NCBI RefSeq assembly: GCF_003217475.1
Contig: NZ_QJSP01000005.1
Coordinates: 1 to 64,000 of the forward strand
Origin: Williamsia limnetica
GTDB lineage: Bacteria > Actinomycetota > Actinomycetes > Mycobacteriales > Mycobacteriaceae
Length of the DNA: 64,000 bases
Reading direction: 5' to 3'
The position numbers were made by a program, and so were the translations under genes. This document shows, in pieces, positions 6,836 through 54,722 of this stretch (within the stretch, counting starts at the first letter, position 1; the number at the start of each line of letters is the position of its first letter). The notes under the pieces were generated by a model. The model saw only the letters and a program-made list of their open reading frames with translations, was not told the origin of the DNA and made no database searches.

Positions 6836-6862
6836 ACGCCGGCTTTCGTCGGGGATGTCGCC

Positions 6863-27184: not shown

Positions 27185-27609
27185 ACGACGTGAGCGCTGC
27201 CGCGCCAGATGTGGACCGCCGCGCGGTGGACAACCTGGTCTTCGACCTGCCAGGTGGCCGGCCAGGGGAGTCGTCATTCGAACAACCATGGGAAATAAGA
27301 GCATTCGCATTGGCGATAGCGGCGCACACCGCAGGCGAGCTGGATTGGCAAGTGTTCCAGCGCGCACTCATCGACTCCATCGACGAGTGGGAATCGACCC
27401 GCTCCGGCGCCTCCGATGATTCGTGGTCGTACTACCACCATTGGGTGAGTGCCCTGGAGGAGGTCTTGGCGACGGCCGGAGCCATTGACCACGAAGCCCT
27501 GGAAAGCCGGACGGCAGATGTGCTGGCCGCGCCGCCGAACCGCAACCACCACAGAGCGATACTCGATCCCGTCGCGATCGACGCAGCGATCACTGCAGGA
27601 GAAAGCTGA
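27181..27609 (+). CDS. Nitrile hydratase accessory/activator protein
   Basis: 142 residues from a GTG overlapping the nthA stop. It resembles the N-terminal half of beta subunits: [20 protein letters not shown], then [13 protein letters not shown] and [13 protein letters not shown]. This matches the NhlE/P14K-type accessory proteins that load cobalt into the alpha subunit by self-subunit swapping. The terminal region is short and lacks the usual Cys-rich metal site of iron-type activators. Confidence 0.85.
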
Positions 27610-32171: not shown

Positions 32172-33245
32172 ATGTCTTCATCACCGAAAGAAATCCCACT
32201 CGCGCACCTGATCAAGCACGGTTGGGGTGACCGCGTGGCACACGCGTTCGCCCCGTTCGCCGGCCCGAGCACGGTCCCAGGGCGCGTTGTCTGCGTGTAC
32301 CGCGGCCAGTGCGACGTCGCGACCCCAACTGGCACGATTCGGGCGGATACCCGGCCGCTGACCGGTGCCGATCCGGTGTGCACCGGCGATTGGGTGGCCA
32401 TCGAGGGGGCGTCGTCCCCACGGGTGGTCGCGGTGCTACCCCGAAGCAGTGCACTCGTTCGGTCAGCGGCGGATCGCACCTCCAGACATCAAGTGTTGGC
32501 GGCCAACATCGACACTGTCGTGATCGCCGTGTCGGCAGCGATGCCGGTCAGGAGTGCGCGCATCGAACGCCTGCTCGCCGTGGCCTGGGACAGCGGCGCG
32601 ACGCCTGTCGTCGCCGTCACCAAGGCCGATCTCAGCGACGACCCTGCAGCTTTCGCGGCCGCAGTCTGTGCAGTGGCACCGGGCGTCGAGGTCGTTGTCA
32701 CCAGCGCGACAACGACTGCCGGGCTGGATTCACTTCGGGCGGCGCTGAACGGCACCGCGGTGGTGATCGGGCCGTCCGGCGCGGGCAAGTCAACACTCGC
32801 GAATGCCTTGCTCGGGGTGGACGCCATTGCCACCGGAGCGGTGCGGGCAGCCGACGGCAAGGGGCGGCACACGACCGTGCATCGAGAATTGCATTCGTTG
32901 CCGGGCGGCGGCGTGCTGATCGACACCCCGGGACTACGGGCGCTGGGTATCGCGGATGTCGGTGCCGCGCTCGAGAGCGTCTTCAGCGACATCGATGAAC
33001 TTGCGAGGCGTTGCGGTTTCCGCAACTGCACGCATCGGACGGAACCGGGTTGCGCAGTCGGTGAGGCAGTCGACGCGGGCCAACTCGCCGCGGATCGGCT
33101 GCAGCGTTATCGCACCTTGCAACGGGAAAGTGACTGGGAAGCATCGCGTTCGAGCGTGCGGAAAGCCACGGAGCGTAAGAACCGCGACAAGTCCATCAGT
33201 CGCGATCAGCGGGCGATGTACCGGTTCCGCAACCGTCAGCGCTGA
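32172..33245 (+). CDS. rsgA: Ribosome small-subunit-dependent GTPase A
   Basis: 357 residues. OB-fold N-terminus (GRVVCVYRGQCDVATPTGTI), then a circularly permuted GTPase domain with G4 VTKADL, G1 GPSGAGKSTLANAL, G3 DTPGLRALGI, and a C-terminal zinc finger CGFRNCTHRTEPGCAV. RsgA aids late maturation of the 30S subunit. The basic C-terminus (ATERKNRDKSISRDQRAM) is typical. A short in-frame-free leader lies upstream with no obvious gene. Confidence 0.92.
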   Translation: MSSSPKEIPLAHLIKHGWGDRVAHAFAPFAGPSTVPGRVVCVYRGQCDVATPTGTIRADTRPLTGADPVCTGDWVAIEGASSPRVVAVLPRSSALVRSAADRTSRHQVLAANIDTVVIAVSAAMPVRSARIERLLAVAWDSGATPVVAVTKADLSDDPAAFAAAVCAVAPGVEVVVTSATTTAGLDSLRAALNGTAVVIGPSGAGKSTLANALLGVDAIATGAVRAADGKGRHTTVHRELHSLPGGGVLIDTPGLRALGIADVGAALESVFSDIDELARRCGFRNCTHRTEPGCAVGEAVDAGQLAADRLQRYRTLQRESDWEASRSSVRKATERKNRDKSISRDQRAMYRFRNRQR

Positions 33246-33366
33246 ATCCGGCAGCGAGCCCGACTCCAGCGATTGCTGTGAATGCTCGGGAACTTTCTGC
33301 CCAGCGCGGTGCTCTTACCTACACAACCGAGAACGACCCCCACCGCACAGCAAAGGACACCTCATC

Positions 33367-33582
33367 ATGAGCATCGAAAACTACGACACCAACGCAGACG
33401 GATACATCGACACCGTCCTGACCGACACCAACGGCGACGGCTGGGCCGACGTCGAGGAATACGACACCAACTTCGATGGCTGGACCGACACCGTCATGAC
33501 CGACGTCGACTATGACGGCTGGAGCGACGTCACCGAATACGACACCGACTACGACGGCTACTTCGACACCGTCGCAGCCTGA
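33367..33582 (+). CDS. Small acidic repeat protein with EF-hand/TSP3-like calcium loops
   Basis: 71 residues built almost entirely of five tandem units of about 13 residues with D-x-N/D-x-D-G cores: YDTNADGYIDT, TDTNGDGWADV, YDTNFDGWTDT, TDVDYDGWSDV, YDTDYDGYFDT. Each resembles the calcium loop of EF-hands or thrombospondin type 3 repeats. The net charge is strongly negative, with no signal peptide or membrane helix, so it seems cytosolic unless exported by an unseen route. A good ribosome site (AAAGGACACCTCATC) precedes the ATG. A strong terminator follows. Probably calcium-binding; the role is unknown. Confidence 0.8.
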   Translation: MSIENYDTNADGYIDTVLTDTNGDGWADVEEYDTNFDGWTDTVMTDVDYDGWSDVTEYDTDYDGYFDTVAA

Positions 33583-40298: not shown

Positions 40299-40586
40299 AT
40301 GGCTTCCAGCGTGACTGCCAGACAGGGCGACATGCGGACACAGGGCGACATGCGGCATCGTGCCGCCGACAATCAGGTGCGTGCGCGGGTTCCGAACAAC
40401 CGTCCCATCAGCAACGACAAGTTCATCGAGCTGGTCAATCCCGATGGCTCCGTGACCACGATCTGCCAGCGCGCCGACGGAACCATCGAGGTCCACACGG
40501 CAGCGATGGCGGTCTCAGGTCAGGCGATCGGCGTTCCAGTGGCCGGCTCCGTCCAAGCCGTTCCTTCCGAAGGTACTCAGCGCTGA
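40299..40586 (+). CDS. Small hypothetical protein
   Basis: 95 residues behind GAGAAGGGG. A polar N-terminus with a duplicated QGDMR (QGDMRTQGDMR) is followed by SNDKFIELVNPDGSVTTICQ and ADGTIEVHTAAMAVSG, alternating strands of a small beta domain. No named family recognised. It is convergent with the large NTPase gene. Confidence 0.5.
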   Translation: MASSVTARQGDMRTQGDMRHRAADNQVRARVPNNRPISNDKFIELVNPDGSVTTICQRADGTIEVHTAAMAVSGQAIGVPVAGSVQAVPSEGTQR

Positions 40587-40608
40587 ATGCTCGAACCGGC
40601 GCGCCGGG

Positions 40609-43600
40609 TCACGTGAGTGATCTGATCCGGTTGGCGACGATTCCTGGATCGGTTGTGACCACCTGTGCGTAACCGGAACCGCCGACCACGAACAGATTGC
40701 GATCGTCGATCGCCACAAGGCGGGTCCGACCCCGCTGGCTGGGTCCTATCGTCGCGTCGGTGACCGCGAGATCGCCTTCGGTCTCGATGAGCTGGATGAC
40801 ACCACTGCCGCCGCTGATGGCCACTGATCCGCCAACCCGAACGATCGACAGAACTGGTCCGACACCTGACTCCGTCGGATCTCCAGGAGTCGGATCCCCG
40901 TCCCGCCACCAGCGCAGGCTTCCATCCGAACGACCGATCACGAGTGCCGTTCCGTCCGCTGAATAGGTCAGAGTAGACACGTCCCCGTCACCAACCTGTT
41001 CAGCAGTGCGGGTGAGGCGGCCATCTGCGGATACGTGCCACTGCGCGATGGCGCCGTCGACCCCGCCGATCGCGATGGTGTCGCCGGTCGGATCGAACGC
41101 CAGCGCGTTGATCCAGTGCCCGGCCAACGCAGCGTCTGACCGTGCCACCAGTCCTTGGTCGGTGACCGCCCACGTCCCGATCGCGTTGTCCGTGGTGGTG
41201 GTGGCCAGCAGCGTTCCTGACGGATTGAAGGCAAGATGGTTCCGAAAGCGGTTGTCCAAGAGGCGGGTTGGCCCGATCTGCCGGGGCGATTGTCGATCGG
41301 TGAGATCCCATAGAGCGAGTGAGCGCCCCGCGATCGTGGCGATCAGTCGACCGTCACCGCTGAGTGCGGTCGACGAGAAGCGCTGCTCGGGTAGCAGTGT
41401 CGTGACCATGGGGCGTCGGGGGTCGAATGTATCGGCAAGAACCGTCACGCCGTCGTCGAACGTCGCGACGCAGAGACTGATTTCGACTGCGCAGCTGGGC
41501 TGCTGACCCTGGCCGGCCGCGCCCGGCACCAGCCCGTCGGGTAGCTGCCATCGGAGCGGTCCGCCGTCGGTGGCACTCACGAGGCTGTTGTCATCGAGGA
41601 ACCGGGAGGCGTAGATCGGCGTTCCCTGCGCCCGCAGCGGCACTCCCGTCAACAGCGGGTTCTCCGGACGGGAGACGTTCCAGACGTGAATGCTGCCGTC
41701 GAGGCTGGACACGGCGAGCTCGGAACCATTCGAATTGAATGCGGTGGACCAGACGGCCGCAGTTGGCCCTTTCAGTGGAGTGCCGATGGGTGTCAACGAT
41801 GCGCCATCGATCGACCAGAGTTGGGTCTCTCCGGAATCATCGGCCGACGTTGCGAGAGTTCCGTCGGGAGCGAAAGCGACGGAGTGGACGCCGGAGGTGT
41901 CGGCGAATGTCTGCTGCGCTCGCGGTCTTCGGGGGTCGGTGACATCCCACAAGGTCATCGTGTGGTCGTCATTTCCGGTCAGGATCAGGGGACGAGTGGG
42001 ATGCCAGGCAATCGTGCGTGCGGGCGATCCCCCGGTGGGCGACAACGACAGTTCCAGCGGCGCAGTGTCGTCGGCAACATCCCACAAGGTCATCATGCCC
42101 GCCCCGTCTGTCGTTGCCAGCAACGGTTGCGTGGGCGAATAAGCGACGGTGAAGGTGGCCTGCGATCCCCGCGTCTCCACTGTGGCGGAGCCTTCGATCC
42201 CGCCCTGATCGTCGAATCGCCACAATCGGACCGAGCCATCGGCCCCGGTGCTGGCCATACCCCTTCCCCGCGGATCGAATGCTGTCGTCGTGGTGTAACC
42301 CGCATGTGCGTCGGGAACCACTGCGAGCTGGGTCGGCGGGGAGGTGTTGCGCCACAGCTCGATCGAGCCGTCGGCTCCGGCGAAGGCAAGTACGTCACCG
42401 TTGCCGGCCACGCTCCAGGCAGCCCCTGCCGGATCCGGGAAACGTTGGTAGAGGCCATCGGCCTGGGTCGCCAGCACCCGCGCGACGATCGACTGATCAA
42501 ACGGATACTTGGACAGTGCCTCCGAGGCGAGACGTGCGGAGGCCGTCGGGTCGGTCATGGCGGAGCGATCGATCTCGGCCAGGGTTGCGTCGCGATTGGC
42601 CAGGTCCAGCGCCCGCGCAGCATCGTTGCTCTTCATCGTCGCCAGCAAGCCGGCGACCAGGGCGATGGTCGCGAGCAGGGTGACCGAGACCTGGGCGATG
42701 CGGCGTCGGCGGTGACTCCGCTTCGCGCGACGGCGCGACGTCTCGAGAAACTCATTGATGCCGGGTCCCGGGGTGCCCTGGTGATCGAGCCACTGCTTCG
42801 TCGAATTGAGCTGTGCGTCACGGTAGAGCAAGCGGGGGTCCCGCCCACTCGCCTCCCACTGCTCGGCGTCGACTTCGACGTACCGGCGGATGGGAGCCCA
42901 CTCGCGCTCGGCGCAGACCCAATCACGGAGCCGTGGCCACGAATCGAGGAGTGAGCGGTGCGACAACTCGATCTGATCGTTGGACAGGACGAGTAGTCGC
43001 TGATCGAGGAAGTGATCGGCGACGTCGGTGGCGCGGACGTCATGGCGGTCGAAGGTCTCGAGCGATTGGACGGGCGTCCGAATCGCCACGACCGACCCGT
43101 CCGGAGTGAGGTGCACCAGTTGTAAGAACACGTGCCGGGCGACTTCCTGCTCGTCAGGAGTCAGCCTCACAAATGCCCCTTCGGCAACGGTGGAGACGAT
43201 GCCCGCGATCCCGCCCGTGCGCTGGTAGGCGGCGATCGTCAGCGATGAGGACTCCCGCGCTTCCCAGGTCTGGCGCATGAGCAGCTGCAGCATGGCCAGT
43301 GGCGCGACGTTCCCGGTCTCGGCGGTGAGATCTTTGATGATCAGATCCGAGAGGCCCGTGGCGACCGCCACGCCCCGTACCTTCGCCGGCTTCTCGATGA
43401 TCTGAGGGAAGCCCTCGGGCGCGACCGGCTTCACCACGATCGATCGATGCTCGAGCGCTTCGGCGAAGGGTTGATCCCCGAGCGCCCGCCCATAGAAGTC
43501 GGCGCGCAGGACAGTGACAACGGCCGCCCCGGACCAGCTTCCCAGGCTGTGGAGGACCGACAGGTACTCAGCGCGATCCTGCGGGTTCACCTCGGTGTAC

Positions 43601-44328
43601 AGGTCTTCGCATTGGTCGACGACGATGAGGACGACTGGGCTCTCGCGTTGCTCGAGCGCGGCAATGATCTCCGTCGCCGACGCGCCATCGGGCCCGATCT
43701 CATCTGCCACTCCGAGGCCGGTCAGCAACTCCCTGACCGGGTCGGAGCCCGGCCGCATCGAGGTCATCGTGCAGGACACTTTTCGCCTGCCCAGGTACAG
43801 ACCTGCTCCGGTGGCGAGAGGGCCGATCCCAGCGTTCAGCAGGGAGGTCTTCCCGACGCCCGCGGCACCGAGCACCATCGTGATCCCGGCCCCGGGCGTG
43901 ATCTGCCGATAGAGACGTTTGGTCAATTCCTCCCGGCCGAAGAACACGTCGGCATCCTCGGCCCTGAAGGGAAGCAAACCCCGGTACGGACATTCCTGAG
44001 AATCCGACTCCGGTGCGGCTATGGAATGTGAGGTCCACAGCATTTCCCAGTCGTCGAGCTGGCGGCGATAGGACTCCGGATCGGCTCCGCGTTTATCGGC
44101 GATGTCGAAGAGGGCCAGCAGATATGGCCGGAGATCGTCGAATTGTCGGGGCGAGGACACGCCACGCCGCCAATCGCTCAGACGTTGCGTTCCGCCGCGG
44201 GCCCCGTACGACCTGGCGCGCCTCGCGACGGCTACCAGGATCGGATCCCCGGCGGCAGCGAACAGCTCGACCAACCACGTATTGATGACTTCGCGACGTG
44301 CTCGCAAACGGTCCCCCAACCGACTCAT
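40609..44328 (-). CDS. nSTAND-type NTPase with WD40 repeats and a membrane helix
   Basis: 1239 residues from the ATG (a TTG one codon earlier is possible). Order: helical, HTH-like N-terminus (about residues 10-80, with QRLSDWRRGVSSP), the nSTAND entry motif CPYRGLLPFRAEDADVFFGR, Walker A GAAGVGKTS (about 155), Walker B VVLIVVDQCED (about 235), sensor region RADFYGRAL, a membrane helix (VSVTLLATIALVAGLLAT, near 570) and about a dozen WD40-like blades to the end (e.g. GADGSVRLWRF, GNDDHTMTLWDVTD). STAND NTPases act as ATP-dependent switches in regulation or defence. It lies head to head with the lanthipeptide precursors, 270 bp apart. Confidence 0.88.
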   Translation of the reverse strand: MSRLGDRLRARREVINTWLVELFAAAGDPILVAVARRARSYGARGGTQRLSDWRRGVSSPRQFDDLRPYLLALFDIADKRGADPESYRRQLDDWEMLWTSHSIAAPESDSQECPYRGLLPFRAEDADVFFGREELTKRLYRQITPGAGITMVLGAAGVGKTSLLNAGIGPLATGAGLYLGRRKVSCTMTSMRPGSDPVRELLTGLGVADEIGPDGASATEIIAALEQRESPVVLIVVDQCEDLYTEVNPQDRAEYLSVLHSLGSWSGAAVVTVLRADFYGRALGDQPFAEALEHRSIVVKPVAPEGFPQIIEKPAKVRGVAVATGLSDLIIKDLTAETGNVAPLAMLQLLMRQTWEARESSSLTIAAYQRTGGIAGIVSTVAEGAFVRLTPDEQEVARHVFLQLVHLTPDGSVVAIRTPVQSLETFDRHDVRATDVADHFLDQRLLVLSNDQIELSHRSLLDSWPRLRDWVCAEREWAPIRRYVEVDAEQWEASGRDPRLLYRDAQLNSTKQWLDHQGTPGPGINEFLETSRRRAKRSHRRRRIAQVSVTLLATIALVAGLLATMKSNDAARALDLANRDATLAEIDRSAMTDPTASARLASEALSKYPFDQSIVARVLATQADGLYQRFPDPAGAAWSVAGNGDVLAFAGADGSIELWRNTSPPTQLAVVPDAHAGYTTTTAFDPRGRGMASTGADGSVRLWRFDDQGGIEGSATVETRGSQATFTVAYSPTQPLLATTDGAGMMTLWDVADDTAPLELSLSPTGGSPARTIAWHPTRPLILTGNDDHTMTLWDVTDPRRPRAQQTFADTSGVHSVAFAPDGTLATSADDSGETQLWSIDGASLTPIGTPLKGPTAAVWSTAFNSNGSELAVSSLDGSIHVWNVSRPENPLLTGVPLRAQGTPIYASRFLDDNSLVSATDGGPLRWQLPDGLVPGAAGQGQQPSCAVEISLCVATFDDGVTVLADTFDPRRPMVTTLLPEQRFSSTALSGDGRLIATIAGRSLALWDLTDRQSPRQIGPTRLLDNRFRNHLAFNPSGTLLATTTTDNAIGTWAVTDQGLVARSDAALAGHWINALAFDPTGDTIAIGGVDGAIAQWHVSADGRLTRTAEQVGDGDVSTLTYSADGTALVIGRSDGSLRWWRDGDPTPGDPTESGVGPVLSIVRVGGSVAISGGSGVIQLIETEGDLAVTDATIGPSQRGRTRLVAIDDRNLFVVGGSGYAQVVTTDPGIVANRIRSLT

Positions 44329-44598
44329 CAACCAGTTCGTTACCCCGGTTCACAAGCTACCGGACTATTGCGATCATCCGGAACCTAACCGGAGGCGTCC
44401 AAAGCGGAAACATCAGAAGTTGCCGCTGAACTGCACTTTCCCCCGTCCTCCGCTGTGGCTGTCGCCGGTCGGCGATCAAATTGATCTGCGTCCATGTGGT
44501 CCACCCGACTTGCGAACAGCCTGGTCCGGACACAGCGGCGTAGCACCCGGTGGCCGAATGCCTCGGTGCCGGTACCGAGAGAAATGAAGGGAAATCGA
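44329..44598. promoter_or_regulatory. Divergent promoter region of NTPase and lanthipeptide operon
   Basis: A 270-bp region with a perfect palindrome GATCAAATTGATC (44474-44486), a candidate operator, roughly 115 bp before the first precursor start. Ribosome site AAGGGAAA directly precedes the first precursor. No classical -35/-10 pair was clear. Confidence 0.45.
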
Positions 44599-44763
44599 AT
44601 GATCGACAAGAGCATCTCGCTCGCCGAAGAAATCGATGAGCAACATTTCGATGGCGTCGCTTACGGCGCGTGCACCACGAACACATTCACCCTGTCCGAC
44701 TTCCTCGGAAACGACGGTGGTTGGTGCACGTTGACCAAAGAATCCCAGAACAACTGCCAGTAA
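44599..44763 (+). CDS. Class II lanthipeptide precursor A1 (lacticin 3147 A1-like alpha)
   Basis: 54 residues. A 24-residue acidic leader (with LAEEIDEQHF) ends at a double-glycine-type site GVAYGA, leaving a 30-residue core starting with Cys. The core parallels lacticin 3147 A1, also 30 residues: CTTNTFTLSDF against CSTNTFSLSDY, then GNDGGWCTLTKE against GNNGAWCTLTHE, about 18 of 30 identical. Cysteines lie at core positions 1, 19 and 29. The Cys at 25 of the CTLTxEC lipid II motif is Ser (codon TCC, one base from TGC), so that ring cannot form. Likely the lipid II-binding half of a two-component lantibiotic. Confidence 0.85.
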   Translation: MIDKSISLAEEIDEQHFDGVAYGACTTNTFTLSDFLGNDGGWCTLTKESQNNCQ

Positions 44764-44796
44764 GTGGCGTTCGAACATCACGGAGAGGTGTGAAAC

Positions 44797-44964
44797 ATGG
44801 CAGTAGACAAGGCCGGGCGGTACGACGAGTCCGAATTGATCGCACTGAACGAGACCGAAGCGGCGGGTGGCACTCATCCGACGACCATCAGCCTCGCATC
44901 TGCACTGTCCGTCGCGCTGTGCCCCACGTTCAAGTGCACCGGCGTCGACGGTGGCTGCGGCTAG
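44797..44964 (+). CDS. Class II lanthipeptide precursor A2 (beta-like)
   Basis: 55 residues behind GGAGAGG. The 25-residue leader contains ESELIAL and ends in AAGG. The 30-residue core has a hydroxyl-rich, hydrophobic first half (THPTTISLASALSVAL) and a cysteine-bearing tail with CPTFKCTG and a final GGC, resembling lacticin 3147 A2, whose tail reads CPTTKCTRAC. Three core cysteines (17, 22, 29) can form rings with upstream Ser/Thr. Likely the beta, pore-forming half of the pair. The frame is too short for many gene finders. Confidence 0.85.
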   Translation: MAVDKAGRYDESELIALNETEAAGGTHPTTISLASALSVALCPTFKCTGVDGGCG

Positions 44965-44979
44965 CACAAGGAGAAGAAC

Positions 44980-45123
44980 ATGATTTGCAACAACATCGAG
45001 AAGGCGCAGGAAGCCGATCTCATCGCTCTGGCGGATGAGCAGGAGTCCGACGCCCATGCCGGCACGATCAGCATGACCAGTCTGGTCGAGACCATCTTGA
45101 TATCGATCGTCACCGCGGCCTGA
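44980..45123 (+). CDS. Beta-like precursor A3 without core cysteine
   Basis: 47 residues behind AAGGAG. The leader of 28 residues (NIEKAQEADLIALADE) ends in HAG; its only Cys is at residue 3, inside the leader. The 19-residue core TISMTSLVETILISIVTAA has seven Ser/Thr and no Cys, so no lanthionine can form. It resembles the first half of the beta core (TISLASALS). The LIALAD leader motif is shared with A2 and A4, implying the same LanM handles it. Dehydration, perhaps followed by reduction, is the expected modification. Confidence 0.75.
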   Translation: MICNNIEKAQEADLIALADEQESDAHAGTISMTSLVETILISIVTAA

Positions 45124-45157
45124 CCACAAGAGTCAATCACCAGTAAGGAGCTCGACA

Positions 45158-45310
45158 ATGCCCTACAGCAATATCGAAAGAGTAGACGAAGCAGAGCTGA
45201 TCGCCCTGGCCGACGACCGGGATTCCGATACCTACGGTGGAACTCTCACTGTCACCAGCCTGCCGGGAACAACCATCATTCCCGTCTCGATCATCGTGAC
45301 CAAGGCCTGA
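45158..45310 (+). CDS. Beta-like precursor A4 without cysteine
   Basis: 50 residues behind TAAGGAG. The leader of 28 residues (NIERVDEAELIALADD) ends in the double glycine TYGG and closely parallels A3. The 22-residue core starts TLTVTSLPGTTIIPVSI and has eight Ser/Thr and no Cys anywhere. Ser/Thr at core positions 1, 3, 5, 6 and 10 align with A3. A recent duplication of a beta-type precursor that lost the ring-forming tail is the simplest reading. Confidence 0.75.
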   Translation: MPYSNIERVDEAELIALADDRDSDTYGGTLTVTSLPGTTIIPVSIIVTKA

Positions 45311-45405
45311 CCCTCGGTTGCGTCGGCGCGGGCCGGTGCCTGGACGTGTCATCTGGCTCCGGCCCGCGCCTCACCACTCGAATCCCGTCCACGAAGGAGT
45401 CACCC

Positions 45406-48387
45406 ATGACCGCGGATCTGCAGGTGTATCCCGAACTCACCGCCGAAGAGACCCGAGAACTGCTGGAGCCGCTCGCGCAATTCGACGACCGACTGGACGC
45501 GGCGCTATCGCACGACACATTCCATTCCTTCCCGCCGGTCCTGGTTTCGCCTGCCCCCCAGCACGAATCGCGTCCATTTCAATCCATCGTCCGTGTGTTG
45601 GTCGAGCCCGAACGCGCGGAGACAGAAGAGGCACTGGCCGCCCACGGTCACAGCCCCCGCCAACAGCTCATCGAAGAATGGGCTTCGTCGCTCGAGGCCG
45701 CGCTGTATGAGGTGTACGTGCGGGTGCTCGTCCGTCACCTGTCGACGGTCTCGGCGGCGAATGGTCTCGACGGCGAGACGCCAGAAGAGCGGTACCAGTC
45801 GTACGTCAGCGGCTTCGGCAACTCCGTGCTCGAGGAGCTCCATCGCGACCATCCGATGCTCGAACGTATTCACCGAAGCCATGTGACCACCCGACGCCGT
45901 GCCTTGGTCGAGATGTTGAACCGCGTGCACCGCCACAGGGCTGACCTCGAGGGCCGGCTGTCGATACCTTCCGATGCCGAGATCACCGCGGTCGACCTCG
46001 GTCGCGGTGATACCCATGCCGGGGGCCGAAGCGTCGCGGTCATCACTTTCGACGGCGGGATGAAGGTGGTGTACAAGCCGCGCCCGGTCGACTGTGAGGC
46101 CGGCTATGCCGAATTGGTCGACTGGTGCGCCGAGCGTGGCATCGTCCTGCCTGCTGCCGAGGTCGTCCGCTGCGACGGCTACGGATTCGTCGAGTTCATC
46201 ACCGCCGTCGATGTCGACGACAGCGACCGGAACGCCTTCATGGACGCCTCAGGCCAACTGGCCTGTGTGCTCTACCTCCTCAACGCCCGGGACATGCACC
46301 ACGAGAACGTGATCGCCGATCATCGTGGACCGGTTCCGGTGGACCTCGAGACGCTGATGCATCCTCCCCGTAACCGGAGCGGCGGCATCCCCGAGGTCCC
46401 GCGAAACGCCCACGAGATCCTCAGGACCTCGATCTACGGTGTAGGTCTGCTGCCGCTGGTCCTCGTTCGGGAAGATGCATCGGGCGGTTACGACCAGATC
46501 GACCTGGGATTTCTCGGCGCCGACGAAGAAGGGCGCTCGCCCTTTTCAGCGCTGACCTTCACAAACCCTTTCCGTGACGACATGGCTGTCGTCCTTTCCC
46601 GTCCTGACAAGCAGGGTCTGCGTGCGAGTACCATTCGTGGCCACAGCCGCGCCGATGTACTGCAACTCGCCGACGCGATGGCTGCCGGCTTCAGACGTGC
46701 CTACGAGGCGATTTCGGCTGAGGCGGCCGAGTTCGAAGCCGTCGTCATCCGGACATTCAATCGTGCCAAGGTCCGGTACGTTCACAATCCCACCGCGACC
46801 TACGCCCAATTGCTTCGGACGACAACGTCGCCGGAGGCTCTCGCGTCGCCCGAGCTGTCTGCGCTGTTGCTCAAGCGTCTGGTGATCGCCAACCGGTACT
46901 GCGCTCCGGAGCTGACAGCCACCGAGGTCACGCAGATGGCCAGTCGGGACGTGCCGTATCTGCTGGTCGACGCGACCGGTACCGAGGTGCGGGACGCTGA
47001 GGGCAATCCAGCAGGGGCGACTGTTCCAGCGTCGCCTCTCGGGACGGTTGTCGACAAGATCCGCGGTCTCGGTGACTCGGACCTCGCGCAACAGATCGAC
47101 CTCATCTACGCGGCCTTCACGGCACGCTTTCCGGACAACCACCTGGAAGCAGACTCGCCCGCTTCGATGCCCACCCTGCGACGCGACGAGGGTCTGCCAG
47201 GTTTGGCCCGGCGCCTCGGCGATCAGTTCACCGAGTCCATGCTTTCTGACCTTTTCGGGCATCTGCCGACGACCTGGCTCAGCCCGCTGGCGTCGATGCA
47301 AACCCGGCGTGCCTGGCCACCGGGTGTCCTCGGATACGACCTCTACAGCGGTCGGATGGGTCCTGCGCTGGCGCTCGCCACCCTCGGGACAGTGCTCGAC
47401 CACAAACGCTTTCATACCGCCGCGGCAAGGGTATTCGATCCCATGGCCGGGATCCTCACCGATCAGAGCTACGAAGACCGGTCGCTCTCGGCCATCGGGG
47501 CGGGCGCGTACACAGGACTGTCGGGATGCCTGTTTGCGCTTGCCGCAGCAGGTGAGGTGGCAGGCCGGGCGGATTGGATCGCCGCCGCCAGGGCGTCGAT
47601 ACCGGAGGTGGTCGCCAGGGCTTCAGCCGGCGCCTCGCTCGGCGCCATCGACGTGATCAGAGGACGCATCGGGATTGCGTCGGCGCTGCGTGCAGTCGCG
47701 GGCGACCACCGCGAATCGTTCGCGATGGTGGACGGCGTGGCCCGCGACGCGGTCGACGAGATCCGGGTGGCAATGCAGGTTCCGCGCGACGAGCGCGATC
47801 AGGTCCTGCGTCAGTCCGGCTTCGCCCATGGCATCGCGGGTCTGGTGTTCCATCTCACGGCCCTCGCGTCCGACGGATTCGGCGGCGGCGATGCGCAACC
47901 TCTCGCGCGGGACCTGTTCGATGAGCTCCCGCAATTCTTCTCACCGGAGCAGGGCAACTGGCGCACCAGCTTCGATGAACCGCACCACTCCACCGGTTGG
48001 TGCCACGGAGTGTCGGGTATGGCGCTCGCGCTCAACGAGTTCGCCGCCTCGGAGGCTGCGGTCGGCAACCGGGCGACCGAGTTCACCGCTCTCGCCATCG
48101 ATACCCTGCAACAGCACGGATTCTCGCGCAATCTGACTCTCTGTCACGGCGATCTCGGTAACTGGGAGGTCGTGCAGCGGGTGGGTTCGGAAGCCCAAAC
48201 GCGCGAGGTTGCGGAACTGCTCACTGCACAGGTCGTCGGGGCAAAGTCCCACGACCGGCACAGTCGACACGCGAACACGGCGAGCCTGATGGTCGGCACC
48301 GCGGGCGTGGCCTATCACCTGGCCAGAAGGCTCGAACCCGATCTGCCCTATTCGCCACTCACCCTGAAGATCGGTGGTGCAGCATGA
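45406..48387 (+). CDS. lanM1: Class II lanthipeptide synthetase LanM (first copy)
   Basis: 993 residues behind GAAGGAG. The N-terminal dehydratase (DUF4135) has VVYKPRP, ARDMHHENVIAD and PVDLETLMHP, the kinase-like residues that phosphorylate and eliminate Ser/Thr. The C-terminal LanC-like cyclase has zinc ligands Cys866 (GWCHG), Cys913 and His914 (LCHGD). It is the bifunctional enzyme that makes (methyl)lanthionine. It starts 95 bp after the last precursor and overlaps lanT by 4 bp. Two LanMs in one cluster is the rule for two-component lantibiotics, one per peptide; which serves which cannot be told here. Confidence 0.95.
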   Translation: MTADLQVYPELTAEETRELLEPLAQFDDRLDAALSHDTFHSFPPVLVSPAPQHESRPFQSIVRVLVEPERAETEEALAAHGHSPRQQLIEEWASSLEAALYEVYVRVLVRHLSTVSAANGLDGETPEERYQSYVSGFGNSVLEELHRDHPMLERIHRSHVTTRRRALVEMLNRVHRHRADLEGRLSIPSDAEITAVDLGRGDTHAGGRSVAVITFDGGMKVVYKPRPVDCEAGYAELVDWCAERGIVLPAAEVVRCDGYGFVEFITAVDVDDSDRNAFMDASGQLACVLYLLNARDMHHENVIADHRGPVPVDLETLMHPPRNRSGGIPEVPRNAHEILRTSIYGVGLLPLVLVREDASGGYDQIDLGFLGADEEGRSPFSALTFTNPFRDDMAVVLSRPDKQGLRASTIRGHSRADVLQLADAMAAGFRRAYEAISAEAAEFEAVVIRTFNRAKVRYVHNPTATYAQLLRTTTSPEALASPELSALLLKRLVIANRYCAPELTATEVTQMASRDVPYLLVDATGTEVRDAEGNPAGATVPASPLGTVVDKIRGLGDSDLAQQIDLIYAAFTARFPDNHLEADSPASMPTLRRDEGLPGLARRLGDQFTESMLSDLFGHLPTTWLSPLASMQTRRAWPPGVLGYDLYSGRMGPALALATLGTVLDHKRFHTAAARVFDPMAGILTDQSYEDRSLSAIGAGAYTGLSGCLFALAAAGEVAGRADWIAAARASIPEVVARASAGASLGAIDVIRGRIGIASALRAVAGDHRESFAMVDGVARDAVDEIRVAMQVPRDERDQVLRQSGFAHGIAGLVFHLTALASDGFGGGDAQPLARDLFDELPQFFSPEQGNWRTSFDEPHHSTGWCHGVSGMALALNEFAASEAAVGNRATEFTALAIDTLQQHGFSRNLTLCHGDLGNWEVVQRVGSEAQTREVAELLTAQVVGAKSHDRHSRHANTASLMVGTAGVAYHLARRLEPDLPYSPLTLKIGGAA

Positions 48388-50570
48388 ACATCGGCATCAC
48401 ACGGCGGCCCCGAGCACAACATGAGCCTGCGCTCCGTCGGGTACCGACGGTCATGCAGCTCTCCCAGACCGAATGCGGACTCGCCAGCTCCATTGCGCTC
48501 CTGTCCTATTACGGCCGCGACGAAGAACTGGCAGAACTACGCAAGGAGTTCGAGGCGGGACGAGATGGTCTCAGCGCGAAACGGATCGGAGATCTGCTCC
48601 GATCCCGCAACATGGATGTCGCCATCTATCGGGTACGCGCAGCCAGAGGCCTGAAGGCGTTTCTCAACCCGGTCATCCTCTACTGGGAGAACTACCACTT
48701 CGTGGTGCTCGAATCGGTCGGCAAACGTCACGCGGTCATCGTGGATCCGGCGGCCGGGCGTCGCAAGGTGACGCTCGACGAACTCGAGAAATCGTTCAGC
48801 GGCGTCGCCATCGACGCCACGCCGGGAGCGGATTTCGAACGTAAACGGATGCCTGTGCTGCACGAATGGCGCAACATCCCGTTGCTGACCCGCGCGGCTG
48901 CGCGCCAGCTCGGTGTCACCGCCATCCTGGCCATCTGCGGTTACGCAGCCACACTTGGTCTTCCGTTCATCACGCAGTGGGCGGTGAACAGCTTTACGAG
49001 CTCTCCGGATTCTTCGCGGCTGTCGACACTGTTGGCCCTGGTTGCCGCAGCGGCCGTCGGATTCTATGCGCTGCAGGTGATTCGTACTCATGTGCTGGCA
49101 CATGCTGTGACACTCATCGGCAGTCACCTCATGTTCGGCACCTTCAGCCGGCTGCTGAGTCTGCCGTACAAGTATTTCTCCACACGATCGCCCGGTGAAC
49201 TGCTCTTTCGTCTCAACAGCGTCAACTCGATACGCGACCTGCTCTCGGCCCGGTTCGTCCAGGGCGCACTGGACATCGGAACTGCGCTCTGCGTACTCGG
49301 CTACATGTTCTGGGTCTCGTGGGAGATCGGTCTCGTCGCCTTGGGTATCTACAGTCTGACCATTGTCGTGCTCGTGACCACGCGCAGGCAGGTGAATGAA
49401 GCGCTCGATTCCGAGATCAGTCAGATGAGCAAGAGCCAGGCAATCCAGCTCGATGCGACGGTGACCATCGAGACCATCAAGATGGGCGGCTACAGCGCGC
49501 AGTTCTTGAATCGCTGGAACGACGAGTACGCCCGGTCGCTGACCGCGATGAAGCGGCGCATGCGCTTGCAGCAGGGGTGGATCTCGGGTCTGGTCTCGAC
49601 CATTCAGCTGGCAGGCCCGCTTGCCATGCTGCTGATCGGTCTGCACATGGTGTCCACCGGCACGATCTCGCTCGGTGCGGCGGTGGCCATCCAGGCGGTG
49701 TCGGGAATGCTGTTCGCCGTCGCCAGCTCGATCTTCGCCGCGTACAACGAGTTCGTCGAGGCATCGCGCTACATGTCGCGCATCCACGACATCACCTCTG
49801 CTGAGCCCGAGTCCGCGGGCGGTGATCTCGACACACTCGACGCGGCGTCCGTTCATGTCGACTCCGTCCGGTTCCGCTTCGACAAGCATTCGGCGAACGT
49901 GCTGGACGGCGTGGATCTCGACATCCCGGCCGGAGCCAAGGTCTCGTTGGTCGGGGCGTCTGGTTCGGGCAAGAGCACTCTGGGACGGATCATCTGCGGT
50001 CTCTACCAACCCACCAGCGGCACAATCCGATTCGGCGGGCACGATAGTCGGGACTACTCAACCGACGCACTCCGCAGCGAGATCGGATATGTCTCCCAAG
50101 AAGTGCACCTGCACAACCGCACCGTGGTGGACAACCTCAAAGCAGGAGCGACGATGGACGACGACGAGGTCATCGCATTCGCCAGGAGCCTCGGCATCAT
50201 CGACTTCGTCGATGCACTCCCGATGGGGTACAACACAGTGATCTCGGAGATGGGTGCCAACTTCTCCGGCGGTCAACGGCAGCGGCTGGCGCTCGCCCGC
50301 ACGCTTCTGAAGCGGCCGGCGATCTTGGTCCTGGATGAGGCCACGGCAGCGTTGGATTCATTGAACGAGCGGCGCGTGACCGAGATCCTGGAGAACCTGG
50401 GCTGCACCCAGATCATCATCGCCCACCGTCTCTCGACCGTGCGGGGTTCCGATGTCATCTACGTCCTCGACGGCGGCCGAGTGGTCGAGTGTGGCGACCA
50501 CGATGAACTCATCGGCAGCGGGGGGCATTACAGCGAGCTCTATGGCCGGCTCGAACCCGTGACTGCCTGA
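48384..50570 (+). CDS. lanT: LanT peptidase-containing ABC transporter
   Basis: 728 residues. The N-terminal C39 peptidase has the catalytic triad Cys31 (QTECGLASS), His105 (NYHFVVLE) and Asp121 (DPAAGRR); a six-helix membrane domain spans about residues 165-445; the ATPase has GASGSGKSTLG, FSGGQRQRLALARTL and VLDEATAALDS. It should cut after the GG/GA/AG leader ends and export the peptides. Fusion of protease and exporter is standard for class II lanthipeptides. Overlaps lanM1 (ATGA). Confidence 0.95.
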   Translation: MNIGITRRPRAQHEPALRRVPTVMQLSQTECGLASSIALLSYYGRDEELAELRKEFEAGRDGLSAKRIGDLLRSRNMDVAIYRVRAARGLKAFLNPVILYWENYHFVVLESVGKRHAVIVDPAAGRRKVTLDELEKSFSGVAIDATPGADFERKRMPVLHEWRNIPLLTRAAARQLGVTAILAICGYAATLGLPFITQWAVNSFTSSPDSSRLSTLLALVAAAAVGFYALQVIRTHVLAHAVTLIGSHLMFGTFSRLLSLPYKYFSTRSPGELLFRLNSVNSIRDLLSARFVQGALDIGTALCVLGYMFWVSWEIGLVALGIYSLTIVVLVTTRRQVNEALDSEISQMSKSQAIQLDATVTIETIKMGGYSAQFLNRWNDEYARSLTAMKRRMRLQQGWISGLVSTIQLAGPLAMLLIGLHMVSTGTISLGAAVAIQAVSGMLFAVASSIFAAYNEFVEASRYMSRIHDITSAEPESAGGDLDTLDAASVHVDSVRFRFDKHSANVLDGVDLDIPAGAKVSLVGASGSGKSTLGRIICGLYQPTSGTIRFGGHDSRDYSTDALRSEIGYVSQEVHLHNRTVVDNLKAGATMDDDEVIAFARSLGIIDFVDALPMGYNTVISEMGANFSGGQRQRLALARTLLKRPAILVLDEATAALDSLNERRVTEILENLGCTQIIIAHRLSTVRGSDVIYVLDGGRVVECGDHDELIGSGGHYSELYGRLEPVTA

Positions 50571-50639
50571 CGGCTGTCTGCTCAGACAGGCTTTGCGTTC
50601 GGCCTGATCAACCTGTCCGGTACTTTCCGAGAGGACATC

Positions 50640-53444
50640 ATGACTGCAACAGTGTCAGCCAATCCGTTTGCAAACCAGCTTTTTTCACCCTTCTATCGCC
50701 CTGTGATGCAATCGGCCACCGACGCGTTGAACGCCTTGGTGGCATCGCCGGTGATCGCCGACGATTCGCGCGGTGGAGTACGTGAACAGCTTGATGCCGC
50801 ACTTGCCCGGAAGGTCGAGATGGAGAGCTTCCGAGTGCTCATCAGCGACTTCCACGAGCATCGCCGGCGGTGGGGCCTGCCATCTGATGCGGAATCGACC
50901 ACCGCTCTGGACCGGTATTCCGCCCTGTTGACAAGTGAATCTGTTCGCGCCGACATTTTGACCCGGCACCCGGTGCTGGCCAAGAACCTCGAGGTGGTGC
51001 AACGCAACTTCGTCCGGTCTGTCGAAGAACTGATCGACCACTACGCAGCCGACCTGGCGGTCCTTCGAGATGAAGGCTGGATCGGCGGTGAGGACCTGAT
51101 CAGCACCATCGTCGCGACCGGATCGGATTCGCACAACGGCGGGCGCCAAGTCTTCATCGTCACACAGGAATCGGGCGTGAAGATCGTCTACAAACCCCGC
51201 CCCCTCGCGATCGACAGGTTCGTGCGGAGTTTGTTCGAGCGGGTATCCGAGGTGGTGGGCGTATCGCTGGATCGATGTGTCCCCAAAGTTCTCGACCGAG
51301 GTGAGCACGGCTGGCAGGAGTTCATCCAAGCGGATCGCTCGGTGACCACGGAGGAGGCTGAGCGCTACTTCTACCGCTTCGGTGTGACGACAATGGTGCT
51401 CGGTGCCATCGGCACCAGCGACATGCATCACGAGAACGTGGTCGCGTGCGGCGAGTATCCCTGCTTTGTCGACGTGGAGACCGCGCTGCGGCCCGACAAC
51501 GGGGTGCTCGATGACAGTCTCGCGCACTTGCTGGTCAACCGGATGAAGCAGGCACCGACCACGACGATGCTACTGCCGATCCAGATCCCGAACGGGCCGT
51601 TCGACGTGATCCTCGCCGGTATCGGGGTGCCTCGCGAGCAGGTGTCGGAGCGTAAGTCGTTCCAGATGTCGGACCGGGACACCGACGCGGTCTCAGTGTT
51701 TCGTAAGACCTTCACCTACAACCACTCCGACAACCTCGTCCGGATCGGTACAGCAGTCGTGGATCCGCTGGACCATTTCGAGACCATCAGGAGTGGCTAC
51801 CTCGCCTGCTTCGAGGCCATCCGGTCCGGCCGCATCGACATCGACGGGGTCTTCGATCTGTTTCCCGAACTACCGGTGCGCTACCTGGTCCGGGCGACCA
51901 CCGTCTACGCTCAGTTCATCGATGCTGCAACGCATCCGGATTATCTGAGTTCACCGGACGAGTATGGCAGGTTACTGGGCCTCCTCAAGGCCCCGTCGTC
52001 GTACAACGACGCCGGGCAGGAGTTCATAACATCCACAGAGTCGGCGGACATGCACAACAGGGATGTCCCATACTTCAGTGTCGACGCCGATTCGCGACGT
52101 CTCGGAACCCGGTCGGTGGTCGGGCCGGAGGTGTTCGACAGATCTCCGAGGAGCATCACCCGCGACTCGATCACCGCATTGCGTGAGACCTCAGGGCTGG
52201 TGCACGAGTTCGTCCTCGAGGAGAGTCTCAACGAGCTGGTCGGCGAGGGTGTGGCATCTCCTCTGTGGAAGTCCGGAGTCTTCGCATCGACGCTCCGTGC
52301 GGGTCCGACGCCTCAGACGGGGGAGGCTGTTGCCGAGATCGTCTCGGAGTTGGCGCATCGCCATGAGGATCCGGATGGGCCGCAGGTGGGCTGGGTGTAT
52401 GGCGGTGGCGGACCGTCGTCGCCGACGCTGGCCCCTGGGACCCTGATCGCCTTCCACGACGGCGGTGGAATCCCGGTGTTCCTCGATCGGGCGGCAGGTG
52501 CTGGTCTCGCGGCATCGTCGTTTGCGGAAGCGGCGGCGCGGGGTCATCAAAAACTGGCCGAGGAGTATCGAAGCGTCCTTCGCGACAGTCCGGAATCGGT
52601 GTTCTCGGGTGAGGCCGGAGCTCTGTTCGGCGCTGTTCCTCTGATGGACAACATGTTCGATGAGTTGCTCACCACCATCTGGGATCGCTTCGAGGCCGGG
52701 ACAGCAGAAACTGACGTGGCAGGGGGAGTCGCCGGCGTGTTGCTGATGTTGTCCGCACAGCACACGGACCGCCGTGTGCTGCGGGGTCGGGCAGCGGACC
52801 TGGTTGCAGAGGCTCCGCGTCGACTGTGGGCAGCAGAAGGGCATTCCGACAGGGCGTGGTTCGATCTTGCCCACGGCCGACTCGGGACCGCCTGGGCAGC
52901 GGCGCGTGCAGCAGACTCCACCGGAGACGATCGACTGCTCGGCGAGGTCGCGGACTGGATCATTGCTGCGCTCGACACCGACTGTCACTCTGAGGGTGGG
53001 GAATTCAAGGGCAGCAAAGCCTGGTGCGCGGGGTCGGCGGGGGTTGCGCTCGTCGCCGGTGAGGTGTTGACCCGCGCAGGTCGGATCGATGCACTCCCTA
53101 CGGGGCGCATGTCAGGCCTGCTCGATCACATGACGACGATCAAGACTACGAATCCTGCAGATCTCAGTGTATGCCATGGTGGTTCGGGAGTCATCCAGTC
53201 ATTGCTTGCCCTGCAACCCTGGCTGCTCGAGGACGAGCTGTTGGCTCGGGCTGTCGACTATCGCGACCGGCTCTACTCCCACGCTGTCGCACACGGCTAC
53301 TCCACCGGAACAGCTGGTAAGACGTCGACGCTCGGCTACATGCTCGGGTGGGCAGGCATCGGCGACACCGACGTGCTGCTCGGCCGCGCGGTCGCGGGCG
53401 ACAACGATCAGCTCATCCCCGTGGCGCTGAACGGAGTTCGCTGA
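50640..53444 (+). CDS. lanM2: Class II lanthipeptide synthetase LanM (second copy)
   Basis: 934 residues behind GAGAGGA. Dehydratase motifs KIVYKPRPLA, TSDMHHENVV and CFVDVETALRP are intact. Cyclase zinc ligands are Cys796 (AWCAG), Cys845 and His846 (VCHGG). It is clearly diverged from the first LanM, so it is not a recent duplicate but a partner with different leader specificity, as in lacticin 3147 (M1/M2) and haloduracin. Its stop overlaps the next start (TGATG). Confidence 0.95.
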   Translation: MTATVSANPFANQLFSPFYRPVMQSATDALNALVASPVIADDSRGGVREQLDAALARKVEMESFRVLISDFHEHRRRWGLPSDAESTTALDRYSALLTSESVRADILTRHPVLAKNLEVVQRNFVRSVEELIDHYAADLAVLRDEGWIGGEDLISTIVATGSDSHNGGRQVFIVTQESGVKIVYKPRPLAIDRFVRSLFERVSEVVGVSLDRCVPKVLDRGEHGWQEFIQADRSVTTEEAERYFYRFGVTTMVLGAIGTSDMHHENVVACGEYPCFVDVETALRPDNGVLDDSLAHLLVNRMKQAPTTTMLLPIQIPNGPFDVILAGIGVPREQVSERKSFQMSDRDTDAVSVFRKTFTYNHSDNLVRIGTAVVDPLDHFETIRSGYLACFEAIRSGRIDIDGVFDLFPELPVRYLVRATTVYAQFIDAATHPDYLSSPDEYGRLLGLLKAPSSYNDAGQEFITSTESADMHNRDVPYFSVDADSRRLGTRSVVGPEVFDRSPRSITRDSITALRETSGLVHEFVLEESLNELVGEGVASPLWKSGVFASTLRAGPTPQTGEAVAEIVSELAHRHEDPDGPQVGWVYGGGGPSSPTLAPGTLIAFHDGGGIPVFLDRAAGAGLAASSFAEAAARGHQKLAEEYRSVLRDSPESVFSGEAGALFGAVPLMDNMFDELLTTIWDRFEAGTAETDVAGGVAGVLLMLSAQHTDRRVLRGRAADLVAEAPRRLWAAEGHSDRAWFDLAHGRLGTAWAAARAADSTGDDRLLGEVADWIIAALDTDCHSEGGEFKGSKAWCAGSAGVALVAGEVLTRAGRIDALPTGRMSGLLDHMTTIKTTNPADLSVCHGGSGVIQSLLALQPWLLEDELLARAVDYRDRLYSHAVAHGYSTGTAGKTSTLGYMLGWAGIGDTDVLLGRAVAGDNDQLIPVALNGVR

Positions 53445-54412
53445 TGAAGGAGAAGACGACGCCCGATCTGTCGGTGGTCTACCCGATGTCGGTCGACAAG
53501 ATGGCCAATGTGATGTCGATGGCAGATGCGGTTCGGCACGGTCCCTTTCATCGACTGTGGTTCGGCCAATCGCTCATGGTCGATCCGGTCGCGGCGATGC
53601 ACTGGTTGCTCGGTGCCGGCTACGACATCCCGTTCGGTCTCGGTGTCGGGCTGATACCTGTCCGGACACCTTTCGAAACTGCCCTCGCCATCAGCACTTT
53701 GGCTCGGATGACCGACCAGCGGATCACATACGGATTGGGGGTCTCGGAGCCGCTGATGGTCGGCGCCTTACACGGAGACCCGTACGCGAGTCCGACTCGC
53801 GCGGCCACCGAATTCATCGGTGCAGTCCGGGCCGTGCTAGGACGCGAGCCCGGGGGGCAGCTCGAGCGGCCGGAGTATTATCACGATCCCGTATTGCGTT
53901 TGACGGACGTCGCCACGGATTCGGTCGAGATCGGACTCGGGGCGTTGTCGCCGAAGCTGGCCACCGTGGCGGGGGCGTCGGCAGACGCCCTGATTCCGTG
54001 GATGACCCCGCCGTATCGGCTCGCCCAGTTGGTCGACAAGGCTGCGGCCGCCGCGGACGACGCAGGCCGCCCCGCACCACGAACTGCGGTGTGCGTCCCC
54101 ATCATCGCTGATTCCAAGGAGTGGGCGACGGATGCATTCAAGGCGTGCGCACTGCACGGCTCGCGCGACCACTACCGAAAGATGTTCGTCGAATCCGGGA
54201 TCACCTGGGACCCGGATTCACCGCACCGCACCGGCGAGAGTCTGGTCGAGGCGAACCTGGTCTTGGTCGCGGGCCGAGACCTGGCAGAGGGTGTGGCTGC
54301 CTATGCAGCAGCAGGGGCAGACGAGGTGTTCCTCAATCCTTTCGGCATCATCCGTCGCACGGGCAGCGTTGACCGCGCGATGGCCTTGTTGGAGGGTGGG
54401 GTACTGAAGTGA
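53444..54412 (+). CDS. LLM-class oxidoreductase, candidate LanJ-type reductase
   Basis: 322 residues, a luciferase-like (F420/flavin-dependent) TIM barrel: YDIPFGLGVGLIPVRTPFE, TDQRITYGLGVSEPLM, VEIGLGALSPKLATVAGASA and AAGADEVFLNPFGI. It is translationally coupled to lanM2. In other lanthipeptide clusters dedicated reductases (LanJ), including an F420H2-dependent type, convert dehydroalanine to D-alanine; lacticin 3147 itself uses LtnJ for this. By position, this enzyme may do the same for the Ser/Thr-rich cores. F420 versus FMN use cannot be settled from sequence. Confidence 0.75.
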   Translation: MKEKTTPDLSVVYPMSVDKMANVMSMADAVRHGPFHRLWFGQSLMVDPVAAMHWLLGAGYDIPFGLGVGLIPVRTPFETALAISTLARMTDQRITYGLGVSEPLMVGALHGDPYASPTRAATEFIGAVRAVLGREPGGQLERPEYYHDPVLRLTDVATDSVEIGLGALSPKLATVAGASADALIPWMTPPYRLAQLVDKAAAAADDAGRPAPRTAVCVPIIADSKEWATDAFKACALHGSRDHYRKMFVESGITWDPDSPHRTGESLVEANLVLVAGRDLAEGVAAYAAAGADEVFLNPFGIIRRTGSVDRAMALLEGGVLK

Positions 54413-54642
54413 CGAGCGACAACGAAGAGAAAGGTGGATTGATGTACTGGATGACGCATGGGAGTTGGGGAAGCGTATTTGCTGTCGGTGCGATCATGTC
54501 CGCAGTCATGCTCGTCGTCTACGACGCGCAGGCCGCCGGTTTCACCGCGATTGTCACGGTGGTCGGAACGATCGCCATCTTTGTGTTCTCGGACCGCCCG
54601 CGTCGCAGGCGAGAGCTGGAGCGCAATTCCCCGACACGGTGA
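54409..54642 (+). CDS. Small membrane protein, possible lantibiotic immunity protein
   Basis: 77 residues from a GTG overlapping the preceding stop by 4 bp. Two hydrophobic helices (SVFAVGAIMSAVMLVVY and FTAIVTVVGTIAIFVF) precede a basic tail (RPRRRRELERN). It is the last gene of the lanthipeptide unit. Small membrane immunity proteins (LanI/LanH-like) are common in such clusters, and no LanFEG transporter is present here, so immunity is a reasonable guess, without family evidence. Confidence 0.55.
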   Translation: MTSDNEEKGGLMYWMTHGSWGSVFAVGAIMSAVMLVVYDAQAAGFTAIVTVVGTIAIFVFSDRPRRRRELERNSPTR

Positions 54643-54722
54643 GCCGACTGCGTATTTCTGCAGTTGACTCAGATCGGTGATCTCGCCTCTGTGCCAGCAT
54701 AGGTTCACTTATTCTGAGCCGT

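Follow-up and report, generated by a model that had tools for sequence, protein, structure and literature searches.

A lacticin 3147/birimositide-like lantibiotic cluster in Williamsia limnetica with altered peptide motifs and two predicted cysteine-free precursors

The described systems closest to the locus studied here are lacticin 3147, encoded on the plasmid pMRC01, and birimositide (brt) of Streptomyces rimosus, whose alpha peptide is lacticin-like and whose reductase (LanJC) belongs to PF00296 (PMC7268733). Previous reports have described two signatures in the peptides of two-component lantibiotics: in alphas, the lipid II motif CTxT/SxEC, and in betas, CPTxxC(T/S)xxC (PMC11519912, PMC9431498, PMC3918158). 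The core lipid II site has been assigned to the ring of the alpha motif (PMC3918158, PMC9431498). The modification enzymes can be specialized, as in rodencin, where M1 is dedicated to the alpha peptide and M2 to the beta peptide (PMC11519912). Extra precursors are described as arising by duplication in the lacticin family, and relatives of roseocin have a nonduplicate third precursor (PMC10027976). Precursors that lack Cys have also been reported: in the npn cluster of Nostoc punctiforme, a dehydratase and a Dha reductase accompany a precursor that is rich in Ser/Thr and free of Cys, and linear D-amino acid peptides have been proposed as its products (PMC5808125); the prochlorosins include LanM substrates without Cys, and some class III clusters have a Cys-free extra peptide (PMC11251773). 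Among the matches listed in our literature searches, we found no work on a Williamsia lanthipeptide, no additional precursor without Cys in a cluster of the lacticin type, and no ring-less beta peptide alongside a normal one.

We analyzed a window of 64,000 nucleotides of Williamsia limnetica (contig NZ_QJSP01000005.1, positions 1 to 64,000). The initial annotation had placed an alpha-like and a beta-like precursor, two LanM synthetases, a LanT exporter, and a reductase at 44599 to 54642 on the forward strand. Family searches confirmed each of these genes at its position; the lantibiotic cluster is genuine, and all of its reading frames are open. There is, however, more than one alpha-like and one beta-like precursor, since two more precursor-like genes are present at 44980 to 45123 and 45158 to 45310. 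Apart from these two, the genes follow the lacticin 3147/birimositide order of alpha and beta followed by M1, T, and M2. The loci of Williamsia sp. 1138 (L001), Streptomyces sp. NBC_01431 (L008), and the genomes G859 (L035) and G791 (L036) share the arrangement alpha, beta, M1, T, M2, PF00296 reductase. Thus, judged by its enzymes and gene order, the cluster is almost certainly that of a two-component class II lantibiotic of the lacticin 3147/birimositide kind. We rejected the idea that this kind is unprecedented in Actinobacteria, because birimositide comes from Streptomyces rimosus (PMC7268733); the basic claim of a real cluster is therefore right, but the kind is already known. What is unusual is the presence of four precursor genes, the loss of the alpha motif, an enlarged spacing in the beta peptide, and the location of the cluster on a 14-kb stretch that is missing from the corresponding site in two other Williamsia genomes.

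The synthetases are LanM1 (45406 to 48387, +), of the alpha (LtnM1) type, and LanM2 (50640 to 53444, +), of the beta (LtnM2) type. They scored 512 and 364 bits, respectively, with TIGR03897 (cut-off 304), and a search of the genome for LanC-like domains found only theirs. In a tree of 39 LanMs, LanM1 grouped with the M1 enzymes of lacticin 3147 (L009), a staphylococcal plasmid locus (L010), L008, L035, and L036, with 100/100 support. LanM2 grouped with the M2 enzymes of the same five loci, also with 100/100 support, and the branching order of the M1 and M2 enzymes was identical (the M2 of L010 is truncated by the end of the locus). LanM1 and LanM2 are dedicated synthetases, orthologs of LtnM1 and LtnM2, respectively. 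This tree upholds the proposal of a lacticin 3147-type cluster with two LanMs in an actinomycete; the reading as a plain pair of one alpha and one beta is incomplete, with four precursors and departing motifs. LanT (48384 to 50570, +), a leader-cutting ABC exporter by its domains and motifs, has a Peptidase_C39 and an ABC domain. The kinase-like and Zn-ligand motifs of both LanMs and the protease and ATPase motifs of LanT are intact in comparison with the corresponding proteins of lacticin 3147, the staphylococcal locus, and L008, and these motifs hold the residues that we take to be catalytic. The statement of the initial annotation that the key residues are intact is thus correct for the enzymes but not for the peptides, where the lipid II motif of the alpha lacks its last Cys.

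The gene at 53444 to 54412 (+) encodes a LanJC-like oxidoreductase that matched PF00296 (E 4.7e-25) and scored below the cut-off for every specific NCBIfam model listed. A reductase gene of the LanJ kind is present, and its activity is predicted from sequence. Lacticin 3147 differs here, with a medium-chain dehydrogenase gene after lanM2 where Williamsia has the PF00296 reductase. We rejected a recent borrowing of the reductase from similar genes of the host: it scored 102 to 140 bits against PF00296 genes near LanMs in the genomes G859, G1029, G1015, and G791, compared with 51.5 bits for the best other copy in its own genome. In the G859 copy, the frame covered by the match contains one TAG, so either the gene is broken or the match perhaps runs too far. 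There were CofD matches in the genome; because the CofD family was also found in 10 of 14 control genomes, these are not specific for F420. The operon closes with a gene for a 77-amino-acid protein (54409 to 54642, +), a probable membrane protein as read by eye, which matched no family above the cut-off. Our guess is that it may be an immunity protein.

The alpha precursor, A1 (44599 to 44763, +; core CTTNTFTLSDFLGNDGGWCTLTKESQNNCQ), was assigned by family matches and alignment, with 39.3 bits for the plantaricin C family (cut-off 29) and 27.4 bits for Pfam Lantibiotic_a (cut-off 27). As the initial annotation had it, the core is identical to that of lacticin 3147 A1 at exactly 18 of 30 residues, at equal length and without gaps; the identity to the alpha of L010 is 17/30. 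Searching plasmids with lacticin A1 yielded no further alpha. Where the motif CTxT/SxEC is expected, A1 reads CTLTKES in both Williamsia genomes, so that Ser replaces the final Cys. The motif is kept in all 12 other alphas examined, which comprise those of L008, L009, and L010 as annotated and nine above-cut-off matches in seven genomes. Ten alpha-family matches below the cut-off (L052 to L056 and L059 to L063) were left out of this count; the five of them that were read, L062, in the motif comparison, and L052 to L055, by eye, lack CTxT/SxEC. Three alpha-like precursors (L044, L057, and L062) lie in tandem at G1015:C6:55386-55956, and the third, which is below the family cut-off, is the L062 without the motif. 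We rejected a sequencing slip as the source of the Cys-to-Ser change, since the codon is identical in the separate assembly of Williamsia sp. 1138; at the DNA level, neither the alpha nor the beta gene differs there, so a local sequencing error is not the cause. A second change concerns residue 7, where lacticin alpha carries D-Ala: it is Thr in A1 and Ser in the five closest alphas; the Ser at this site is described as conserved in the birimositide account (PMC7268733). An S7T mutant of lacticin alpha was reported to be active (PMC3918158), so Thr at this position need not be harmful.

A1 has no Cys with which to close the lipid II ring, and its docking to lipid II is therefore probably weaker or altered. 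We considered whether A1 could still bind lipid II through a rearranged ring, with Thr20 or Thr22 closing on Cys29, in which case the system would work as birimositide does and the additional precursors would be accessories. The retention of Cys19, Thr20, Leu21, Thr22, Glu24, and Cys29 and the activity of the S7T lacticin mutant (PMC3918158) fit this explanation, but it has to account for a closing Cys that is kept in 12/12 other alphas and for the published description of the motif ring as the core lipid II site (PMC3918158, PMC9431498). We regard it as a tentative possibility.

The beta precursor, A2 (44797 to 44964, +; core after GG, THPTTISLASALSVALCPTFKCTGVDGGCG), belongs to the LchA2/BrtA2 family with 49.6 bits (cut-off 26). 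Its segment CPTFKCTGVDGGC keeps the start of CPTxxC(T/S)xxC, but five residues instead of two separate the last two Cys. All eight of the other distinct beta cores have two residues there, one of them (L070) coming from a match below the family cut-off and the two G859 copies, which share a core, being counted once. These G859 copies are tandem beta genes with slightly different leaders (L035, positions 6733 to 7215 on the reversed strand); beta duplication has thus occurred outside Williamsia too. Lacticin 3147 and the staphylococcal locus, which have LanM1, LanM2, and LanT orthologous to those of Williamsia and an identical gene order, keep both the CTxT/SxEC and the beta motif and have one alpha and one beta each, unlike Williamsia. 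L008, L035, and L036 share the gene order and the PF00296 reductase with Williamsia but have complete alpha and beta motifs, and we saw no Cys-free precursor in them. Because the peptides fail both the lipid II and the beta signature, the cluster, as far as sequence motifs go, should not be classed as that of a plain lipid II-binding two-component lantibiotic.

The two further precursor genes, A3 (44980 to 45123, +) and A4 (45158 to 45310, +), are located between the beta gene and lanM1, with purine-rich stretches preceding both starts. By profile and alignment, each has a beta-type leader and a Cys-free core, namely, TISMTSLVETILISIVTAA for A3 (predicted cut after AG) and TLTVTSLPGTTIIPVSIIVTKA for A4 (predicted cut after GG), and the two are 49% identical over 43 residues. 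In the LchA2/BrtA2 family search, A4 scored 24.1 bits, just below the cut-off of 26, and A3, at 14.6 bits, was also below it; a genome scan detected A4 at E 6.7e-4, and A3 was absent from its listing at E 1. Against a profile of six betas (those of the window, G859, L008, G791, lacticin, and the staphylococcal locus), A3 scored 15.7 bits and A4 scored 11.9 bits; none of 1,000 shuffles of either peptide did as well, the best reaching 9.8 and 10.9 bits, respectively. In the alignment, both peptides stop where the beta ring block CPTTKCTxxC begins, so that A3 and A4 read as beta peptides minus the ring block. Ser and Thr make up 7 of 19 residues of the predicted core in A3 and 8 of 22 in A4 (P = 0.007 and P = 0.004, respectively, compared with the enzymes of the cluster).

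A predicted hairpin at 45325 to 45370 (+) separates the four precursor genes from lanM1. The 98 bases from 45308 to 45405 fold at -46.9 kcal/mol (z = -2.83), with 0 of 200 shuffles as good; the equivalent in Williamsia sp. 1138 folds at -46.7 kcal/mol, with 1 of 200 shuffles as good, and a hairpin between beta and lanM in L008 folds at -59.1 kcal/mol. The fold at 5630 to 5690 of L009 sits between its alpha and beta genes and has no bearing on where the hairpin belongs. Because the hairpin lacks a T run, a terminator scan of 44300 to 45450 found nothing. The position of the hairpin, after A4 and before lanM1, groups A3 and A4 with the precursor genes of the operon. In our judgment, A3 and A4 are very probably true precursor genes.

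A fate for these peptides is suggested by the npn cluster, where there is precedent for pairing a dehydratase and a reductase with a precursor that has no Cys (PMC5808125): in Williamsia, too, Cys-free, Ser/Thr-rich cores are encoded beside a LanM and a reductase. The npn system is described outside an alpha/beta lantibiotic, and its reductase, NpnJA, is NADPH dependent (PMC5808125). By analogy with rodencin, whose M1 and M2 are dedicated to alpha and beta (PMC11519912), LanM2 would be the likely enzyme for A3 and A4. Rodencin also resembles the Williamsia system as a two-component lantibiotic with D-Ala and D-Abu, but it has rings on both peptides, in contrast to the ring-less A3 and A4 (PMC11519912). 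Roseocin-type clusters have extra precursor genes, as Williamsia does, although the third one is described as alpha related rather than as a ring-less beta (PMC10027976). Birimositide shares with the Williamsia cluster a lacticin-like alpha, a BrtA2-kind beta, a PF00296 reductase, and an actinobacterial host; by its published description, against which the comparison was made rather than against its own sequence, it has one alpha and one beta (PMC7268733). The two extra Cys-free precursors are found only on the Williamsia side.

We propose that this is a lacticin 3147/birimositide-kind operon on a lineage-specific stretch, with four precursors, in which A3 and A4 give rise to linear modified peptides that act with alpha and beta; our confidence in this reading as a whole is evenly divided. 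LanM1 would dehydrate and cyclize A1, and LanM2 would do the same for A2. The LanJC-like reductase would convert some dehydro residues to D-amino acids, leaving position 7 of the alpha as D-Abu or, if it is not reduced, as Dhb, and LanT would remove the leaders and export the peptides. A3 and A4 would have arisen by duplication of the beta gene, keeping the leader and the N-terminal half of the core and losing the Cys ring block. Since no Cys ring block is left, they could be only dehydrated and reduced, without cyclization. Most likely, then, we infer, LanM2 and the reductase turn A3 and A4 into linear peptides with Dha or Dhb and D-Ala or D-Abu, and we slightly favor the view that such modification occurs. 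These products may act at membranes with alpha and beta. A stronger form of this proposal is improbable, namely, a lipid II-independent, four-component lantibiotic in which the alpha gave up its lipid II ring and linear, D-amino acid-rich A3 and A4, made by LanM2 and LanJC, act at membranes with alpha and beta.

The main rival, and a real one, is that an ordinary two-component lantibiotic cluster is decaying, A3 and A4 being dying copies of the beta gene and the Cys-to-Ser change having already weakened or spoiled the product. Decay explains the motif losses well, as the alpha and the beta each lack a motif kept in 12/12 and 8/8 other peptides, and the G859 pair shows duplicated beta genes with an identical core elsewhere. 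The distribution of A3 and A4 also fits: they were seen in two Williamsia genomes only, L001 being the one locus among L001, L008, L035, and L036 that has them. A profile search of 335 genomes of the class found them in no other lineage, giving, besides the two window genes, only one weak match with a stop inside a 713-codon frame, which we took as chance; a plasmid search with A4 gave one chance match. Decay accounts less well for the open frames and intact enzyme motifs and for changes that are mostly silent. In a comparison with Williamsia sp. 1138, the crude dN/dS of the cluster enzymes was 0.12 to 0.25. A3 and A4 together differ there by four silent changes and a single one that alters the protein, Cys3Arg in the leader of A3 (P = 0.014, from five changes only), and the alpha, the beta, and the A3 and A4 cores show no amino acid change between the two genomes. 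We consider decay doubtful. That A3 and A4 are made and exported unmodified, or are signal or immunity peptides instead of antibiotic components, is unlikely: their cores lack Cys and LanT could process them by leader type, but their leaders are akin to the LanM-dependent beta leader and their cores are rich in Ser and Thr.

If A3 and A4 are made and modified as we propose, the same enzymes would yield ring-bearing and ring-less products from related leaders, which would be a natural test of the purpose of the beta ring, and the peptides would reveal the action of LanJC on several dehydro residues per chain. An otherwise intact family member that has naturally lost the lipid II Cys is also a test of the extent to which the motif is required.

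The initial annotation had allowed that the cluster might belong to a common, well-described actinobacterial family with a known product. Only half of this proved true: birimositide is a known product, but the cluster kind is not common in the genomes searched. LanM1 matches, counting its own genome, were found in 2 of 9 Williamsia genomes (E 1e-20), in 7 of 401 genomes drawn from the family (1e-30), in 8 of 397 from the order and 9 of 394 from the class (both 1e-60), and in 2 of 396 from the phylum (1e-80). Two other genomes in the class draw of 394 had LanM1 matches with E below 1e-100. The nearest named relative among the genomes compared is Williamsia sp. 1138, whose cluster enzymes are about 98% identical.

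The whole cluster is held by a lineage-specific stretch of about 14.1 kb (40553 to 54673, exact ends uncertain), delimited by comparison with the genomes G006 and G004. In both, DNA matching the window runs to 40551/40552, is followed by 62 to 63 bases, and resumes with a match from 54674 on; neither genome has a LanM1 match. The flanking TetR gene had no match at E 1e-20 in five other Williamsia genomes. Divergent from the operon, at 40609 to 44331 (-), is a gene for an nSTAND1 NTPase with WD40 repeats (Pfam nSTAND1, E 3.4e-90). The protein has a counterpart of 99% identity in Williamsia sp. 1138, but its first 640 residues matched nothing in the DNA retrieved around nine other lanthipeptide loci, nor in the empty-site loci L115 and L116. 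PADLOC matched the WD40 protein with HEAT-ARM_XIII (E 8e-12) and a weaker second model. A role as a regulator or in a defense-like function is possible, and as a guess, the protein may regulate the cluster. For a flank of L035, the best 3 of 27 matching records were transposases or unannotated. Elsewhere in the window, the gene at 26582 to 27184 (+) encodes a nitrile hydratase alpha chain (PF02979, E 6.4e-88), and the flanking open reading frames at 25875 to 26585 and 27106 to 27609 may encode its partners. The open reading frame at 32956 to 33582 (+) ends in a C-terminal run of short Asp-rich repeats resembling YDTNxDGxxDT and perhaps binds calcium.
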